NCBI GenBank assembly: GCA_024279255.1
Contig: JAJRRT010000045.1
Span: 1 to 32,898, forward strand
Source: Deltaproteobacteria bacterium
GTDB lineage: Bacteria; Desulfobacterota; Desulfuromonadia; Desulfuromonadales; Geopsychrobacteraceae
Length of the DNA: 32,898 nt
Direction of reading: 5' to 3'
This document shows positions 9,541-27,053 of this stretch, one piece after another (the first letter of the stretch is position 1; each line of letters opens with the position of its first letter). Below the pieces are notes generated by a model that saw only the letters and a program-made list of their open reading frames with translations, was not told the DNA's origin and did no database searches. The position numbers and the translations under genes were made by a program.

Positions 9541-11463
9541 ATGTTGCAACTACGTGGAGTCAATAAATTTTTTGCTGATCGACGCATTTTTGATGCTATC
9601 GACTGGCATGTCCGACCGACTGACCGCATCGGTCTCTGTGGTGAGAATGGTGCTGGCAAGTCGACTCTTCTCAAGCTGCTTGCAGGTAAGGTCGAAGCAG
9701 ACGGGGGCCAGGTCCAGTCAGCGAAGGGGACGACCTTTGGTTATCTTCCGCAGGATGGACTTGAGTATAAGGGCCGAACTCTCTTTGCCGAGGTGCACAG
9801 CGCTCTTGAAGAGTTGCTGGCAATTCAGTCTGAGTTAAGCGCCCTGGAAGTCACCCTGGCCGGAAGCCATGAGCCTGCCGACCTTGATCGCTATGCAGAA
9901 TTGCAGACCCTTTTTGAAGATCGCGGTGGTTATAGTATGGAGGCCGAGGTTGGTAAGGTTCTGGGTGGACTCGGCTTTGCGACCAGCGACTTTGAACGTC
10001 CCTGTGAACAGTTTTCAGGTGGTTGGCAGATGCGGATTGCGCTGGCCAAGTTGTTGCTGCAGCGCCCGACCCTGTTGCTGCTCGATGAGCCGACCAACCA
10101 TCTCGATCTACCAGCTCGTGACTGGCTGGAAGATTATCTGTGTAACTATCCCTATGCCGTGGTTCTGGTCTCTCATGATCGCTTTTTTCTTGATAAGGTG
10201 ATCGGTCGCATCGTTGAAATCTGGAACGGCAAGTTGACCGAATATCCTGGTAACTACAGTAAATATTTGACCACGCGTGATGAGCGGGTCAAGGCACTGC
10301 GAGCGGCCAAGCAGCAGCAGGATGATGAGATCGCAAAGACTGAGGCCTTTATCAGTCGCTTCCGTTATCAGGCGAACAAGGCGGCCTTGGTGCAGAGCCG
10401 GATTAAGCAGCTGAATAAAGTTGAACGGATCAGCTTGCCACCGGCACGAAAGAAAATTGCCTTCAGCTTTCCGGTGCCGCCGAAGGGTGGACGGATCGCT
10501 CTCGAGCTGAAGAAGGCCGGACAGAGCTATGGCGATCTGAAAGTCCTTGAATCCGTTGATTTGATCGTCGAACAGGGTGAGCGGATTGCGTTGGTTGGCC
10601 CGAATGGCGCCGGTAAATCAACTTTGATGCGTCTGATGGCCGGAGTTGAAGTCCCTGCCAGCGGAGAGCGGATTGCGGGGCATAATCTGGCTCAGGCATA
10701 TTTTGCACAGAATCAGGCTGAGGAACTTAGCCCGGGCCGAGATGTTCTCGCTGAGATCTCTGCTGATTCGCCTTATGATATGGTTCCAAAGTTACGCAAT
10801 ATCCTCGGTAGCTTTCTCTTTTCTGGTGACGAAGTTGAAAAAAAGGTCCGGGTTCTCTCTGGTGGGGAGCGCAATCGCTTAGCGCTGGCCAAGTTGTTGT
10901 TACGGCCAGCCAATTTATTGCTCCTCGATGAACCGACAAACCACCTGGATCTGCAGTCAAAACAAGTGTTGCTTGATGCCTTAAAGGGCTACAAGGGAAC
11001 GATCGTTTTTGTGTCACACGATCGTTACTTTGTCGATCAATTAGCCAGTCGGGTGCTCGAAGTTGGTGCCGGTCAGGTTGAATCCTATTTTGGCAATTAT
11101 GAAGATTTTCTGCGCGCCAAGCAGGAGGTCGGTGATGTCAGTCATAGCAGCCAGCGAGTTGAACAAATCATTACGGAGTCGTCAGTCGAGGTGCCTCAGT
11201 CGAAGGATGACCGTCTGCAATCGCATACGGAGCGAAAGCAACAGCAACGGCAGCAGCAAAAACGTGAAAAAGATCTGTCGAAAATAGAATCAGAAATTGA
11301 AAAACAAGAGGCCGAACTGACTGCGATAGAACAGCAGATGGCTGATCCGCAGTTATATCAGGATCAGGAAAAGTGGCGTCTGACCAGCAAGTCTCACCAG
11401 AAAATTAAAGAACGCCTCGAAGAGACCTACGCGCGCTGGGAAAAATTGCAGGAGCCTGTATGA
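9541..11463 (+). CDS. ABC-F family ATPase (ribosome-associated translation factor type)
   Basis: Soluble protein of two fused ABC domains without membrane segments, 640 aa. First domain: Walker A GENGAGKST (34-42), signature FSGGW (158-162), Walker B LLLLDEPTNHLD (178-189), H-loop SHDRFF. Second domain: GPNGAGKST (353-361), LSGGE (439-443), LLLLDEPTNHLD (459-470). The interdomain linker (about 245-300), rich in Arg/Lys/Gln, is the P-site tRNA-interaction region of the family. A Gln/Lys/Glu-rich coiled coil (about 555-636) ends the protein, as in YheS/Uup-type members. Such factors bind the ribosomal E site and relieve stalling. The exact subgroup is unresolved. The gene overlaps the next by 4 bp (ATGA), so the two are translationally coupled. 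Confidence 0.9.
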   Translation: MLQLRGVNKFFADRRIFDAIDWHVRPTDRIGLCGENGAGKSTLLKLLAGKVEADGGQVQSAKGTTFGYLPQDGLEYKGRTLFAEVHSALEELLAIQSELSALEVTLAGSHEPADLDRYAELQTLFEDRGGYSMEAEVGKVLGGLGFATSDFERPCEQFSGGWQMRIALAKLLLQRPTLLLLDEPTNHLDLPARDWLEDYLCNYPYAVVLVSHDRFFLDKVIGRIVEIWNGKLTEYPGNYSKYLTTRDERVKALRAAKQQQDDEIAKTEAFISRFRYQANKAALVQSRIKQLNKVERISLPPARKKIAFSFPVPPKGGRIALELKKAGQSYGDLKVLESVDLIVEQGERIALVGPNGAGKSTLMRLMAGVEVPASGERIAGHNLAQAYFAQNQAEELSPGRDVLAEISADSPYDMVPKLRNILGSFLFSGDEVEKKVRVLSGGERNRLALAKLLLRPANLLLLDEPTNHLDLQSKQVLLDALKGYKGTIVFVSHDRYFVDQLASRVLEVGAGQVESYFGNYEDFLRAKQEVGDVSHSSQRVEQIITESSVEVPQSKDDRLQSHTERKQQQRQQQKREKDLSKIESEIEKQEAELTAIEQQMADPQLYQDQEKWRLTSKSHQKIKERLEETYARWEKLQEPV

Positions 11464-20912: not shown

Positions 20913-20935
20913 GCTGAATCCGCAGGGGCTACCCT
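20906..20935. terminator. Short hairpin shared by two converging genes
   Basis: AGGGTAG (20906-20912) and CTACCCT (20929-20935) are perfect 7-bp inverted arms. The left arm contains the TAG stop of the COG3044 gene. The right arm contains the TAG stop of livF on the other strand. The two genes are only 16 bp apart. There is no T-run, so termination strength is uncertain. Confidence 0.45.
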
Positions 20936-21654
20936 CCTAGATAGGCTTTCTTGACTTCAGGATTTCCAAGAAGTTCTTCGCCGGTCCCTTCGGCGACAAT
21001 TTTTCCGGTATCCAGTACGTAACCTCGATGCGCGAGATGTAAAGCCAGGTTGGCATTCTGCTCGACAAGCAGAATGGTCATGCCTTCGTCGTTGAGCTGT
21101 TTCAATTTGCGGAACAGTTCATATTTCAGCACCGGCGCCAACCCCATAGAAGGTTCGTCGAGCATCAGAAAGTTACAGCCGGTCAGCAGGGCACGGCCAA
21201 CCGCCAACATCTGTTGTTCACCCCCTGAGAGGGATTCACTCCGCTGCTTACGGCGCTCGTGAAGACGTGGGAACAGATCAAATATCCGTTGATATTCTGG
21301 CTCAAAATCTGTCCCTTTGGCACGTGCATAGGTCGCTAGTTGCAGATTTTCCATAACCGTCAGATTACCGAAGATGTGTCGTCCCTCAGGAACCAGGGCG
21401 AGATGCAAATCCTTGACGACTTGATCCGGTTTAGTCTTCAGGATTGATTCACCATTAAAGCGGATATCACCAGCAATTACGCGCGGAGCTTCTGGTGGAG
21501 GCAAGCGCGAGATGCTATGAAGGCTGGTGGTTTTGCCCGCCCCATTTGCGCCGATCAGGGTGACAATCTCACCTTTATTGACATGAAAGCTGATCCCGTG
21601 AAGCGCCTGGATATTGCCGTATTTCACCTCTAGATTTTCAATAGACAGCATCAT
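20929..21654 (-). CDS. livF: Branched-chain amino acid ABC transporter ATPase LivF, second operon
   Basis: ATPase subunit of 241 aa. Walker A GANGAGKTT (35-43), LALVPEGRHIFGNLTVMENLQLA, signature LSGGEQQMLAVGRAL, Walker B FLMLDEPSMGLAPV, H-loop LLVEQNANLAL, and C-terminus VKKAYLGG. It carries an insertion SRLPPPEAPRVIAGD between Walker A and the Q-loop that LivF of the first operon lacks, so the two are paralogues rather than recent copies. The start overlaps the livG stop (TGATG), with a second ATG immediately after that could be used instead. It is the last gene of the second operon. Confidence 0.92.
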   Translation of the reverse strand: MMLSIENLEVKYGNIQALHGISFHVNKGEIVTLIGANGAGKTTSLHSISRLPPPEAPRVIAGDIRFNGESILKTKPDQVVKDLHLALVPEGRHIFGNLTVMENLQLATYARAKGTDFEPEYQRIFDLFPRLHERRKQRSESLSGGEQQMLAVGRALLTGCNFLMLDEPSMGLAPVLKYELFRKLKQLNDEGMTILLVEQNANLALHLAHRGYVLDTGKIVAEGTGEELLGNPEVKKAYLGG

Positions 21655-22451
21655 CAGATTACATCATCTCCGAGATATGCGGTCATAACCGCGGGGTCGT
21701 TACGGACTTTTTCAGGATTTCCTTCGGCGATGGTCTGGCCGAAATCGATAACCTTGATCTGGGTGCACAGCTCCATCATGACATCCATGTGATGCTCGAT
21801 CATCCAGATAGTGACATCGAACTTGCCATGGATCCAGCGCACTAGTCGGATCAACTCTTTGACGTCGGCCGAGTTAAGTCCTGCGGCCGGCTCATCAAGC
21901 AACAACAGTTTGGGATGGCTCGAAAGGGCACGCGCAATTTCCAGCTTGCGCTGGGTTCCATATGGCAGGTTCTTCGGAAAGTCATTGGCGTAACGTTGCA
22001 GGTCGAAAACCTCGAGAAGCTCCGCAGCTTCCTGGGCTATTTCTTTCTCGCGTTCCTGGTAATGTTTGCTGCGAGCGATCGCATGGAAGAGGCCATATCC
22101 GAGTCGATAATGTTGGGCGACACGAATGTTGTCGAGCACCGTCATGTCGTTCCAGAGGCGAATATTTTGGAAGGTACGGGCAACACCGAGTGCAGTAACT
22201 TTGTGTGGTTTGAGCTCCGCGGTCGGAATTCCGTCGATCAGAATTCGACCTTCGCTCGGCTGATAGAAGCCACTGACCAGATTGAAGACGGTCGTTTTCC
22301 CCGCACCATTGGGTCCAATCAGTCCTGAGAGTTCTCCCGGCATCAACTTGACGTTAAAGTCATTGACCGCTGTCAGGCCCCCAAAATGTTGGGTCAGCCC
22401 GCAGATTTCGAGGACCGGCGCGTTATCTGTCTCTACTTGAGTCTGTGCCAT
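21654..22451 (-). CDS. livG: Branched-chain amino acid ABC transporter ATPase LivG, second operon
   Basis: ATPase subunit of 265 aa. Walker A GPNGAGKTT (46-54), VARTFQNIRLWNDMTVLDNI, signature variant LPYGTQRKLEIARAL, Walker B LLLLDEPAAGLNSAD, and H-loop MIEHHMDVMMEL (the usual D after EH is H here). It ends TAYLGDD. The start overlaps the livM stop by one base (TAATG) and the stop overlaps livF (TGATG), so livM, livG and livF are tightly coupled. Confidence 0.92.
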   Translation of the reverse strand: MAQTQVETDNAPVLEICGLTQHFGGLTAVNDFNVKLMPGELSGLIGPNGAGKTTVFNLVSGFYQPSEGRILIDGIPTAELKPHKVTALGVARTFQNIRLWNDMTVLDNIRVAQHYRLGYGLFHAIARSKHYQEREKEIAQEAAELLEVFDLQRYANDFPKNLPYGTQRKLEIARALSSHPKLLLLDEPAAGLNSADVKELIRLVRWIHGKFDVTIWMIEHHMDVMMELCTQIKVIDFGQTIAEGNPEKVRNDPAVMTAYLGDDVI

Positions 22452-23530
22452 TATTTAAACCTGTAAAATTTCTTCAGCCGGGGGAAGATATCTTTCAACT
22501 CACGGTTGCCCATAATTCCTTCGGGACGGAACTGCATCAGGATGATCAAGAGTAATGGAATTAAAACCCATCTCCACACCGGACTGATATCATAGCTATC
22601 GGGAATAAGGTGTACTTGATGAGCAAAATCGTTGACCAGAGGGATAATAAATCTGAACCCTTCCAACATGAATGTAAAAAGAACTGCTGACAATATAGAA
22701 CCGGTGAGTGAGCCCATGCCGCCCAGATAAACCATGACCAACACTTCGGTTGATTTCATGATGTTGAAACTGCCCGGATTGACATAGCCGAGGATATAGG
22801 CAAATAGCCCACCAGCGATACCCGCCAGACCTGCAGAGAGCATGAAGGTAATGGTTTTCATCTTGTTGGTGTTGACACTCATGATCTCGGCGGCAACTTC
22901 ATCCTGACAGATGGCGGAGACCCCTTTGCCGAAGGTCGATGAGACGTAGCGACGAATCAACCAGATGCTAAACACCGTGAAGATAAATACCCAGATCGGC
23001 ATCCAGGGCAGTTCGATAATATCTTCCATCGAGTTGACCAGGCGTTTCATGCCCATGAAACCACGTGAACCGCCGATGGCACCGATATTTTCGATGGCGC
23101 TGATGATAATGTAGTTGACGGCGATGGTGATGATCGCCAGGTAGTCGCCGCGGGTCTTGTAAGAGGGTACGGCAACCAGCAATCCGGCTAGTGCCGCTGC
23201 GATACCACCCGCGAGGATGACAAATGGAAAGGCATAGAGAGCGTACTCAGGGTTGAGCAACGCCGCGCCAAAAACCTTATCCTTAGCGAACAGCCAGACG
23301 CCGAGCAGCGAGGATACATAGGCTCCGACGCACATGAATCCGGCATGGCCACAGGAGAACTCGCCCATATAGCCATTGACCAGATTGAGGCTGGCAGAGA
23401 GGATCACATTGACCCCCATGAACATCAGGACCGACATGGTGTAAAGGCTGAGATACTCTTGATCGGCCAGGTAGACAAGTAGGCCGCCACTCAGAGCCAG
23501 AATCAGGTGGACGGAATAACGTTGTAACAT
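22451..23530 (-). CDS. livM: Branched-chain amino acid ABC permease LivM, second operon (short form)
   Basis: Permease subunit of 359 aa that begins directly at the core membrane domain, unlike the 407-aa paralogue. Signatures: LSASLNLVNGYMGEFSCGHAGFMCVGAYVSSLL, YKTRGDYLAIITIAVNYIIISAIEN, GKGVSAICQDEVAAEIMSVNTNKMK (coupling loop), and VMVYLGGMGSLTGSIL. A strong GGGGGA lies 6 bp upstream of the ATG. It follows livH after 9 bp. Confidence 0.92.
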   Translation of the reverse strand: MLQRYSVHLILALSGGLLVYLADQEYLSLYTMSVLMFMGVNVILSASLNLVNGYMGEFSCGHAGFMCVGAYVSSLLGVWLFAKDKVFGAALLNPEYALYAFPFVILAGGIAAALAGLLVAVPSYKTRGDYLAIITIAVNYIIISAIENIGAIGGSRGFMGMKRLVNSMEDIIELPWMPIWVFIFTVFSIWLIRRYVSSTFGKGVSAICQDEVAAEIMSVNTNKMKTITFMLSAGLAGIAGGLFAYILGYVNPGSFNIMKSTEVLVMVYLGGMGSLTGSILSAVLFTFMLEGFRFIIPLVNDFAHQVHLIPDSYDISPVWRWVLIPLLLIILMQFRPEGIMGNRELKDIFPRLKKFYRFK

Positions 23531-23539
23531 ATCGTCCCC

Positions 23540-24451
23540 CTAAATCTTGGTGGTCTGGGCGATGCCGAACAGACCGGTAGGTTTCCAGGTCAGTATCGCC
23601 AGTAGGACGCTAAAAGAGATCAGGTCGCGAAATGTCGAAGGGAAAAAGGCGACAACCATAATTTCCACTGCACCGAGCAAAAAACCGCCGATAAATGCCC
23701 CTCGAATATCACCGATACCACCGACAACGGCTGCGATAAATGCCTTCCAACCGATCAACGCGCCCATGTAGGGTTCCAGCACCGGGTAGCTCATGGCAAA
23801 GAGCAAACCTGCCAGGCCAGCAAAACCTGAACCGAGAATAAAGGTAACGACTATAATCTGATCTAGCGGAATTCCCATCAGGGGAACTGCGAATTTATCG
23901 TAAGAAATTGCCCGCATCGCCATGCCGATCCTGGTTTTCGTTACCACCCAATGGAGGAATAAAAAGGACAGGAAAGCGGTCACAATGACGGCAATTTTCA
24001 GATTTGTAAAAGTCACTCCGCCAATATTGTAAACCTGAACTTCAATAAGGACCGGAAAAGCTTTGCGACTGGCGCCCAAAATAGCCAGGTTGGCGTGTTC
24101 GAGGATCAAACCACACATCAGGGCGGTAATGACCACGTAGAGGCGATGAGCGCCCTTTTTGCGCAATGGTCGATAGGCGATCCTCTCAAGGGTAACGCCG
24201 ACCAGAGAGGTCAGAATCATTGTCAGTGGAATGACAAGGATCAGCGCTACCCAACCCGGCAAGCCGAGAACCGTGAGGCAGAAGGTTGCCACAAAAAAGG
24301 CAATATAGGCTCCGACCATGAAGACATCGCCATGGGCGAAGTTGATCAGGGTCAGAACTCCATAAACTAGAGTGTAGCCAAGAGCAATCAGGGCATAAAA
24401 GCTACCCCACTGCAAAGCGTTAATAATATTTTGAATGAGACTCTCTAACAT
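23540..24451 (-). CDS. livH: Branched-chain amino acid ABC permease LivH, second operon
   Basis: Permease subunit of 303 aa. Signatures: GSFYALIALGYTLVYGVLTLINFAHGDVFMVGAYIAFF, GMAMRAISYDKFAVPLMGIPLDQ (coupling loop) and GWKAFIAAVVGGIGDIRGAFIGGFLLGAVE. ATG 24451 is preferred over the in-frame TTG at 24457 because AAAGG lies 6 bp upstream of the ATG. A hairpin lies between this gene and the binding-protein gene. Confidence 0.92.
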   Translation of the reverse strand: MLESLIQNIINALQWGSFYALIALGYTLVYGVLTLINFAHGDVFMVGAYIAFFVATFCLTVLGLPGWVALILVIPLTMILTSLVGVTLERIAYRPLRKKGAHRLYVVITALMCGLILEHANLAILGASRKAFPVLIEVQVYNIGGVTFTNLKIAVIVTAFLSFLFLHWVVTKTRIGMAMRAISYDKFAVPLMGIPLDQIIVVTFILGSGFAGLAGLLFAMSYPVLEPYMGALIGWKAFIAAVVGGIGDIRGAFIGGFLLGAVEIMVVAFFPSTFRDLISFSVLLAILTWKPTGLFGIAQTTKI

Positions 24452-24486
24452 GAACAACCTTTGGTTCTTGTATCGCTGGCAAGGAA

Positions 24487-24545: not shown

Positions 24546-25712
24546 TTATGGACAGACAGACTCTTTAAACGCAAACTCACCGGTATCGGTAATCTTAACC
24601 ACAACAGCACACTTGACGGGGTCGCCCTGCTCGTCAAACTTCATGCTGCCGGTAATTCCGTCAAAGCTGCTGATCGCCTCCATGCCTTTGCGAACGGCTT
24701 TACGATCCTTCTTCAGTTTGCCGGTGATTTTCCCGGCATTTTGGATTGCCAGCAGAACAACGCGGGTTGCATCCCAGGTTAAAGCCGCCACGTCATCAGG
24801 AGTGGCGCCATATTTGGCACTGAAACGATCGATAAACTCTTTAGTCGCACCAGTCGCACCAGAAGCCGCGTAATGTGTCGAGAAAGAAAGGCCATAGCAA
24901 GCCTCGCCACAGAGAGTTATCAACTCAGAAGAACCCCAAGAGTCAGAACCCATGAACTCGCCTTTGAAACCAAGCTGGCGTGATTGTGGAACAATAAGAG
25001 CGACCTGGTTGTAGTTGTCAGGGACAAAAATGAAGTCAGGCTTGGTCGCAATGATCTTGGTCAGTTGGGCCGAAAAATCCTGGTCTTTGGTGCCGTGGCT
25101 TTCGAATGCCTTAACGGTACCGGCGCCCATTTTTTTTTCGAACTCGGCCTTGAAGATTTCTGCCAGGCCCTTGGAGTAGTCGTTAGAGAGGTCATAAAGA
25201 ACTGCTGCGGTCTTGGCGCCAAAAGTCTTGACGGCATAGTTTACGGCAACCGGACCCTGGAAGGGGTCGAGGAAAGCAGCCCGGAATACCCAGGGTCGAT
25301 CGAACGTGGTATCGGGATTAGTCGACCATGGAGTGACCATAACAACGCCGTTATCATCGGCAATCTGACCAGCAGGAACTGCCTGTTTGGATGAGTTAGG
25401 GCCGATCATGGCGATGATTTCATCTTTTGTAATCAACTTAAGAGCAGTGGTAACCGCAGACTCGGCCTTTGCTTCGTTGTCCTCATAGATAAACTCGAGC
25501 ATATATTTTTTGCCGCCAACTTCGAGACCACCGGCACCGTTGATGTCGGCTTTAAGCATTTCGGCTGACTGTTTGGACATCTCACCGACCTTCGGAATGT
25601 CACCGGTCATCGGAATGTTGAAGCCGATTTTGATGGTGTCATTTGCCAGCGCGGGAAATGCCAACAGCAGGAACAGGCCGATGAAAACAAGACTCTTGAT
25701 CACTCTTTTCAT
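24546..25712 (-). CDS. livK: Branched-chain amino acid-type ABC transporter, substrate-binding protein, second operon
   Basis: Periplasmic type I binding protein, 388 aa. Signal peptide to about residue 23 (LLLAFPALA|NDTIKIGF). Family segments: GFNIPMTGDIPKVGEMSKQSAEM, IYEDNEAKAESAVTTALKL, AMIGPNSSKQAVPAGQIADDNGVVMVTPWSTNP, and AAVLYDLSNDYSKGLAEIF. It has a Cys pair (LCGEACYG, about 270) and a C-terminal Cys not found in the first-operon protein, and is clearly divergent from LivJ. The ligand may be another amino acid or small amide, although the leader suggests branched-chain control. AAGGAGAAGAAC gives an ideal ribosome binding site. Confidence 0.88.
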   Translation of the reverse strand: MKRVIKSLVFIGLFLLLAFPALANDTIKIGFNIPMTGDIPKVGEMSKQSAEMLKADINGAGGLEVGGKKYMLEFIYEDNEAKAESAVTTALKLITKDEIIAMIGPNSSKQAVPAGQIADDNGVVMVTPWSTNPDTTFDRPWVFRAAFLDPFQGPVAVNYAVKTFGAKTAAVLYDLSNDYSKGLAEIFKAEFEKKMGAGTVKAFESHGTKDQDFSAQLTKIIATKPDFIFVPDNYNQVALIVPQSRQLGFKGEFMGSDSWGSSELITLCGEACYGLSFSTHYAASGATGATKEFIDRFSAKYGATPDDVAALTWDATRVVLLAIQNAGKITGKLKKDRKAVRKGMEAISSFDGITGSMKFDEQGDPVKCAVVVKITDTGEFAFKESVCP

Positions 25713-25767
25713 GTTCTTCTCCTTGGTTGATTGGGATGGAATACTTTGCGATTAAAATGTTTGCCGA

Positions 25768-25812
25768 AAAACGTAAAAACCGCCAGTAGGTTTTTTGCCC
25801 TACATTGGCGGT
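25768..25812 (-). terminator. Intrinsic terminator in the leader of the second liv operon (attenuator)
   Basis: On the minus strand ACCGCCA (25812-25806) pairs with TGGCGGT (25785-25779) and GTAGG (25803-25799) with CCTAC (25790-25786). The two helices are separated by a 2-nt bulge and the loop is 8 nt. The hairpin is followed by TTTTTACGTTTTT. It lies after the promoter and before livK, about 65 nt from the livK ATG, so it can control entry into the operon. The neighbouring 26051-26962 gene has its own terminator at 26004-26036, so this one is not needed for it. Confidence 0.8.
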
Positions 25813-25836
25813 AGTGTCTTACATCTGGATCACATT

Positions 25837-25878
25837 TCAGTGGCAACTCCTGAGATGTAAAAGGATTTGGACTTTCAT
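25837..25878 (-). CDS. Candidate 13-aa liv leader peptide, MKVQILLHLRSCH
   Basis: ATG at 25878 to TGA at 25837, placed between the predicted promoter and the intrinsic terminator. Five of 13 codons specify branched-chain amino acids (Val3, Ile5, Leu6, Leu7, Leu9), with Ile-Leu-Leu consecutive. The codons TTA-CAT-CT are part of an 8-nt segment (25860-25853) that pairs perfectly with 25826-25819 just after the stop codon, immediately before the terminator stem. This is the order expected of ribosome-stalling attenuation. The ribosome binding site (GAGG) is 12 nt upstream, longer than ideal, and may overlap the start site, which is the main weakness. Confidence 0.5.
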   Translation of the reverse strand: MKVQILLHLRSCH

Positions 25879-25897
25879 TTTATATTTAATCCTCGCG

Positions 25898-25927
25898 AAG
25901 ATACCAATAAAACATAGACGTGGTCAA
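25898..25927 (-). promoter_or_regulatory. Promoter of the second liv operon
   Basis: On the minus strand TTGACC (25927-25922), an 18-bp spacer, and TATCTT (25903-25898), with a TGG extension before the -10. The predicted start near 25891 gives a leader of about 180 nt containing the leader ORF, an 8-bp pairing and the terminator. Confidence 0.6.
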
Positions 25928-26050: not shown

Positions 26051-26962
26051 CTAAAAATGATGCACAAGACGCAGTAGATAGCGATCACCCTCAGGGCGAT
26101 TCTCTGCTTGTGATTCAAAATAGGTATTGAAGAAGATATGGGTATCCTGTGACAGGCTGAAAATTGCACCGGGACCGATGGCGAAGACCTTTTCCTTGGC
26201 AGGGCTGTCACTTCCATCAGCCTGAGAGTTGCCGATCTGGTTCATGAAGTAGCCATTGAGGCCGAGGCGTAATTTTTTTGGAATAACCTCGTATGCTACT
26301 GCAAAGTTGCCATGAATAGCCTGGCCAGCTTGAGTCTCCCCTGCACCGCTACCGATAAACGGGTCATCGTTCTTGGCATTCCACAAATAATGCAGCCGCC
26401 AGGAAGTGGTCAGTTGTGGTGTGACGAACAGAGTCGCTGCCCAATAGGGATTAAAGGAAAAAAAGTTACTCCCCGGGTTCAGAGCCTTGCTGTTGTCGTA
26501 CCGTCCGGTCGGGAAGATCGTCTGCAGTTCGACCCGTTGCATGAAACGCGGACCATTTTTGCCCATGATCGGATCCCATTGCAGATAAGGTCCGACCAGA
26601 ATGTCCCCAATTCCGGTACTGTTGGCTGGCAGGTCGCTGTTGAAATCGACGATAGGTACGATTACGTCCAGACCCCATTTGCCACCCAGGAGCAGAACTT
26701 GATCAGACTGGTAGATGAGTTGATTCAGGCTGACGGTGACATCGACAGTGGCGTTGGGGGCCGGGTGGTTGGCAAGTTTGTCAGCAGAGTAATACTGAAG
26801 ATACTCGGTGAAGTACAATCCTGGCCCGGCGGGGGGGCCGCCATCAAGAAAACTGGTAAAACCAAGGTTGACCGCAGGCTGATCGTAGGCAATGACAGGA
26901 CTGGTTATTAACACAGAGAACACACAGGCAATGGACAGGATAAACAATTTACTGGTTTTCAT
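26051..26962 (-). CDS. Outer-membrane beta-barrel protein, MetA-pathway-of-phenol-degradation type
   Basis: Probable outer-membrane channel-like protein, 303 aa, with a signal peptide [25 protein letters not shown]. The sequence alternates short amphipathic strands and ends LLRLVHHF with a terminal Phe, as barrel proteins recognised by the BAM machinery do. Segments such as [29 protein letters not shown] and [27 protein letters not shown] match the family often named 'phenol degradation protein meta' or SphA-like. Uptake of a hydrophobic compound is possible but the family name should not be taken as function. ATG 26962 is preferred over the longer frame because GGGAGGT lies 4 bp upstream. 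A TATACT -10 is at 27059-27054. Confidence 0.7.
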
Positions 26963-27053
26963 CGATACCTCCCAAGGATAGATTTCAAAAAAAGAGAGCA
27001 AGGCTTATCGCCATAATTTACTGGGATCGTTGCTGATTTGTGCGAACCGGCTA

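Follow-up and report, generated by a model that had tools for sequence, protein, structure and literature searches.

What controls the livKHMGF operon at this locus, and is its leader an attenuator? The region ahead of livK was examined within the window, by which we mean the whole 32,898-nt stretch of DNA analysed. A first-pass annotation had recognized here the architecture of leader-peptide attenuation: a promoter, a short ORF rich in Val, Ile and Leu, a segment of its Leu codons with a downstream complement, an intrinsic terminator and then livK. The letters and coordinates of all these elements proved right when checked against the sequence. The features considered below are as follows.

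25898..25927, minus strand: promoter-like site TTGACC-18-TATCTT, 9 of 12 consensus matches
25837..25878, minus strand: short ORF MKVQILLHLRSCH, judged incidental (near chance, unconserved)
25773..25854, minus strand: match to leader model R1, including AGGAG (25851-25847) and the terminator; 21.9 bits, E = 0.03
25779..25812, minus strand: intrinsic terminator hairpin ACCGCC...GGCGGT, -18.8 kcal/mol, and a T-rich tract reaching to about 25767
25724-25719, minus strand: SD-like AAGGAG of livK, from the sequence
24546..25712, minus strand: livK, substrate-binding protein; NF011933 match of 162 bits, below the cut-off of 477
20929..24457, minus strand: livH, livM, livG and livF ORFs; LivH, LivG and LivF matches all below curated cut-offs, livM assigned by position

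On one side of the leader is a gene of the Phenol_MetA_deg family (26051-27001) with a terminator of its own (26036-26006); on the other is livK (25712-24546), with which livKHMGF begins. The genome (G000) comprises 3.53 Mb in 108 contigs. By LivK, the closest named relative is L049, a metagenome genome of Geopsychrobacter, at 96% identity. Elsewhere in the window, a 640-codon ORF (9541-11463) matches the ABC-F family (ribosomal protection-like) with 470 bits, over the cut-off.

The promoter-like site and the terminator

The promoter-like site consists of TTGACC (25927-25922), an 18-nt spacer and TATCTT (25903-25898), with transcription predicted to start near 25891. Sites of this quality occurred twice in the 501 bases scanned, against 1.2 expected. 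Five genus-mates have a livK match, and four of them (L023, L027, L028 and L033; L034 was left out) could be compared by alignment; over the promoter stretch (25930-25896) their identity to the window is 63–74%.

The terminator hairpin, located about 66 nt before the livK ATG (25712), exceeds chance: the stability of the whole leader has a z-score of -3.45, and one of 200 shuffles was as stable. A simple terminator scanner missed it because its stem has an internal bulge, and listed only the hairpin of the upstream gene. Counterparts are common in the family. A same-strand intrinsic terminator ending 45–85 nt before the livK ATG was found in 15 of 26 same-family livK leaders (26 of 27 loci, L047 being omitted because its sequence begins within livK; the later model-search finds G022 and G015 are not included). 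The same scan found none on the reverse strand of the 26, and in other livK leaders it returned 3 of 78 versus 4 of 78 for the reverse strand. The stem of 13 of the 15 family terminators begins with ACCGCC or GCCGCC, while inner stems and loops vary. The scan found no terminator in the other 11 leaders, including that of L023, the nearest relative, where by eye a hairpin remains but no T tract. Among the five genus-mates it found a terminator only in L027, leaving L023, L028, L033 and L034 without one. The first liv operon, as had been remarked, lacks such a leader: there was no leader-model match there and no such hairpin in the stretch inspected by eye.

Three further observations concern livK leaders. 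In two metagenome genomes outside the family (L072 and L073), a perfect hairpin of 13 bp with TTTCC directly after it lies about 81 nt upstream of livK and may represent an independent terminator of that leader. In two Desulfobulbaceae genomes (L062 and L067), hairpin-like stretches carrying CGGCATAAGGAGCCGTAA and its complement recur 300–120 nt before livK. Finally, a TTYATCACCA-like block (25740-25725 in the window) precedes the livK SD in many family leaders, terminator-less ones included.

The short ORF and leucine as a possible signal

We next consider the putative leader peptide. The ORF MKVQILLHLRSCH runs for 13 codons from ATG 25878 to TGA 25837, and five of the 12 residues after Met are Leu, Ile or Val. 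An ATG ORF of 8–30 codons at least as rich in these residues arose in 3.2% of 5000 dinucleotide shuffles of 25927-25713, or in 8.0% (5000 shuffles) if GTG and TTG starts were counted. The noted complementarity of the Leu-codon octamer TTACATCT (25860-25853) to AGATGTAA (25826-25819) is indeed present, but an 8-bp complement arose in 50 of 1500 leader shuffles, and in the predicted fold 25860-25855 pairs with a nearer stretch instead. Neither the ORF nor the complement convincingly exceeds chance. By eye, there is no usable ribosome-binding site for the ORF: the predicted transcription start is about 13 nt ahead of its ATG, and the sole GAGG precedes that start.

The ORF also fared poorly in comparison with relatives. 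In the four aligned genus-mates its start codon is not kept at its position, and identity is 26–43% over the ORF region and 22–44% over the Leu-codon stretch, versus 68–93% over the stretch before the livK start. Among the noted leader parts, only the promoter-like site and the terminator appear conserved. A single comparative observation speaks for the ORF: in L028 an ATG shifted by a few bases precedes CTTTTACAT (Leu-Leu-His), which the window's ORF also has, and by eye its frame remains open into the hairpin. More broadly, an ATG ORF with at least five Leu, Ile or Val residues was present in 5 of 17 terminator-bearing leaders, a share similar to the 25% of window-leader shuffles. These five ORFs (window, 5/12; L048, 6/10; L038, 7/18; L030, 7/22; L032, 6/32) differ in both sequence and position. 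Another candidate, the micro-ORF GTG-AGC-AAC-GAC-GCC-GCC, was rejected by eye, having neither an SD at a fitting distance nor a shared stop.

In attenuation as in the enterobacterial ilv and leu operons, ribosome stalling at the MKVQILLHLRSCH Leu codons would alter the fold and block termination. Folding of the window leader revealed no antiterminator, whether the Leu codons were masked or the terminator was forbidden, and found no upstream partner for the 5′ arm of the terminator. A stalled ribosome would therefore not stop termination, which removes the central step of the mechanism.

Is leucine nonetheless the signal? The T-box linked to leucine in Desulfuromonadales is a terminator/antiterminator attenuator whose antiterminator also uses the 5′ arm of the terminator. 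The genome has a single T-box match (115.6 bits), on another contig (C72 9587-9820, equivalent to L220 1988-2221, minus strand), so a T-box was dismissed as the livK leader. By eye, the gene behind it reads as leuA, and our own reading of the alignment gives CUC (Leu) as the specifier codon. The T-box family (RF00230) has no match in the window, nor in the leader stretch at E ≤ 5, while matches occur in 39 of 44 family genomes, 36 of them over the cut-off. Moreover, LivK of this operon scores only 162 bits with the branched-chain binding-protein model, whose cut-off is 477, compared with 310 for LivK of the first liv operon, so that leucine is not a safe guess as the signal.

Taken as a whole, control by a leader peptide appears very improbable. 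The order of promoter, ORF, terminator and livK fits it, as do the share of Leu, Ile and Val residues and the L028 codons; however, the ORF is near chance, unconserved and by eye without a usable ribosome-binding site, masking its Leu codons uncovers no antiterminator, and the same genome reads leucine at leuA through a T-box. Of the architecture initially proposed, the promoter-like site and the terminator ahead of livK are retained, with counterparts in relatives, and the peptide is not.

A proposed leader RNA family ahead of livK

If not a peptide, what do these leaders share? Seven relatives align with few gaps from a GGAGG to the T tract, with 30 invariant columns. The GGAGG, invariant in all seven, lies 32–33 nt before the 5′ arm of the terminator, and RNAalifold places a small hairpin at it (five pairs, two with changes on both sides). 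From these seven sequences, the window being excluded, we built the covariance model R1. Searched against 277 genomes of the class, R1 gave 11 matches above 28.2 bits, all preceding livK (seven are the model's own sequences). At E ≤ 0.01 there were 26 places, of which 14, chance matches, do not precede livK; of the 15 places below the top 11, only that in G016 does. A search of 44 family genomes, run with stricter filters that lost some weak matches, added G015 (35.2 bits), whose livK is cut by the contig end. Among 32 sources, R1 also matched L029, L030, L039, L063 (Desulfobulbaceae) and L031, with weaker rows for L118, L027 and L023.

R1 matches the window directly ahead of livK, at 25854-25773 (21.9 bits). 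This is the only match at E ≤ 1 in the genome and the only one at E ≤ 10 in the window. The upstream half of R1 alone falls in register in the window but ranks no better than 18th of 65,712 positions, and G006, G010 and G018 have matches that score above 21.9 bits and are not at livK (for G010 and G018, judged by contig). Since the score is weak and undistinctive, the window would hold at best a diverged member of the family, and placement is the stronger argument.

Known families do not account for the leader: Rfam 15 scans of these leaders returned no match, only weak rows at chance level, and literature searches yielded no paper on this livK leader among the matches listed. The leaders would represent a livK-specific attenuator RNA family that appears undescribed. 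We also considered GNGCAAYGANGCCGCC as a motif at other genes. It occurs at 38 places in 34 of 136 order genomes, of which 34 places were inspected; 7 of the 30 fetched precede livK, and the other 23, together with four more, look like chance matches in coding DNA, so this idea was dropped.

The leader is found with two versions of the operon. In the LivK tree (37 rows) two groups are separated by a long branch with full support, and LivH follows the split (73.9–77.6% versus 84–98% identity to LivH of the window). L046 and L048 are outside the tree, and their clade B label is by default only. Both deeply different versions of LivK and LivH are present at the family (f1) livK loci L022–L045; each genome has a single copy, and the two versions share genera and the kind of leader that precedes them. 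For example, one genus (g6) holds both versions with the leader, one in L032, L035 and L045 and the other in L024 and L025. Leaders of this genus that precede different versions are 0.59–0.69 identical, while same-version leaders across two genera are 0.56–0.60 identical; even within one genus and version, those of L024 and L025 are only 0.57 identical. Judging from these sequences, the operon may possibly have been exchanged behind a resident leader.

A proposed mechanism and its rivals

When nascent RNAs were folded up to the 5′ arm of the terminator, an upstream hairpin, GGUG.GC-AANGAN-GCCGCC, took the arm in 8 of 18 leaders (L032, L035, L045, L024, L037, L038, L029 and L039) with a mean probability of 0.97–1.00. 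Leader by leader, such occupancy was reached by 1.3–6.8% of 400 shuffles. L029 and L039 form the hairpin with altered pairs and bulges, and L032, given 80 nt of upstream sequence, prefers another partner for the arm. The hairpin is weak in L025 and L030; L031, L041, L063, L195 and L219 show weak or other pairings at the arm, and in the window, L026 and L027 folding found no local hairpin there. In the window GGUG.GC-AANGAN-GCCGCC is absent, and occupancy of the arm is 0.20 versus 0.34 in shuffles. On the LivK tree, leaders with the antiterminator are not grouped apart from those with the terminator alone.

The upstream hairpin would explain the near-invariance of GGUG, GC and CCGCC, although no covariation was seen in its helix in the seven model sequences. 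Being kept in 8 of 18 leaders only, it is not claimed as a defining feature of the R1 family. An initial guess paired GGUG with the first CGCC; it lacked covariation and gave way to a better register three columns on, which led to the foldings above. A long-range pairing between the stretches preceding the terminator and the SD was tested in 17 leaders and is unsupported as a common feature: only the window fell below 0.05 of 200 shuffles (0.04), by a peculiar pairing of its own.

These foldings suggest a possible mechanism. In the best-kept relatives, the nascent RNA would first form GGUG.GC-AANGAN-GCCGCC, the 3′ side of which is the 5′ arm of the terminator, so that read-through would be favored. 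A signal, perhaps acting on the stretch from GGAGG to GGUG, would undo this hairpin, and the freed GCCGCC could then pair with the later GGCGGU and end transcription before livK. The window retains the promoter-like site and the terminator, as well as GGAG and the spacing of about 33 nt, but not the antiterminator hairpin, so that, as far as RNA alone is concerned, nothing is predicted to oppose its terminator; the latter may act as a steady brake or as one relieved by a bound protein or ribosome. What we observe are the sequence of the leader, its conservation, its placement ahead of livK and its foldings; from these we infer termination in vivo, the switch and its signal. On balance, we consider it somewhat probable that the window leader is an attenuator of an undescribed, livK-specific RNA family, with a terminator predicted to end part of the transcripts and an ORF that likely plays no role. 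More tentatively, the leaders might constitute a new class of attenuating RNA in which GGAGG, about 20 nt and a switch hairpin sharing its 3′ side with the terminator sense an amino acid or a partner directly. Such leaders have been seen so far only at liv operons, in a single family of Desulfuromonadales and a single genome of Desulfobulbaceae, and the RNA would have stayed in front of two quite different operon versions.

Other readings of the hairpin deserve weighing. The terminator may be the relic of an ancestral switch that lost its antiterminator and now simply lowers livK expression as a fixed damper. The missing antiterminator and the decay of leader elements in the genus, where the scan left L023, L028, L033 and L034 without a terminator, speak for this, but the hairpin and T tract of the window are still strong, and we regard it as rather unlikely. 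It is less likely still that the hairpin terminates a small RNA or shields livK from transcription coming from upstream, the livK promoter lying downstream of it. The roughly 66 nt between terminator and ATG would leave room for that arrangement, and the promoter-like site and hairpin alone would give an RNA of about 120 nt; yet the upstream gene has its own terminator, and between the hairpin and livK the scan listed no promoter-like site on the minus strand.

As to the sensor, the invariant GGAGG of the seven model sequences and a CsrA match in the genome of the window bring to mind CsrA, bound at the leader GGA and the livK SD, as the common sensor of the family. However, 6 of the 12 genomes with a leader match of at least 34 bits have no CsrA match, including G014, G022 and G029, listed as 99–100% complete. 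CsrA was accordingly discarded as the common sensor, a role that we consider extremely unlikely.

If the attenuator reading is true, a liv-type transporter of a Desulfuromonadales family is under the control of an uncatalogued leader RNA of about 85 nt, and the terminator with its competing hairpin in relatives would make a compact switch, testable in vitro. The diverged leader of the window resembles a leader-peptide attenuator, and it is the comparison that reveals the peptide as the part not kept.

Comparison with known systems

For the E. coli liv genes, reports from decades ago describe premature termination and control linked to leucyl-tRNA or rho. With the ilv and leu leader-peptide attenuators of enterobacteria, the window leader shares the order of promoter, short ORF, terminator and operon, but its ORF is unconserved and the window has no antiterminator. 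The leucine-linked T-box of the order Desulfuromonadales likewise attenuates through a terminator and an antiterminator; livK, however, has no T-box match, and the T-box of this genome sits on another contig before the leuA-like gene.

The remark that no such case was known for liv transport needs amending, since leader motifs have been published under the names livK (Pseudomonadales) and livJ (Streptomyces). The livK motif, RF01744, is described as a candidate structured RNA named after livK (PMC2864571). It resembles the present leader in these respects, but no Rfam scan of these leaders matched it, and Pseudomonadales, given as its host, represent another phylum-level group. A Pelagibacter motif sometimes lies ahead of livM and livK (PMC2704228). 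The livJ motif is a leader RNA found mostly in Streptomyces before genes for LIVBP-like proteins and proposed as a riboswitch candidate; it differs from the leader studied here in that its described action is at the SD rather than through a terminator, and in belonging to a distant group (PMC11109978).
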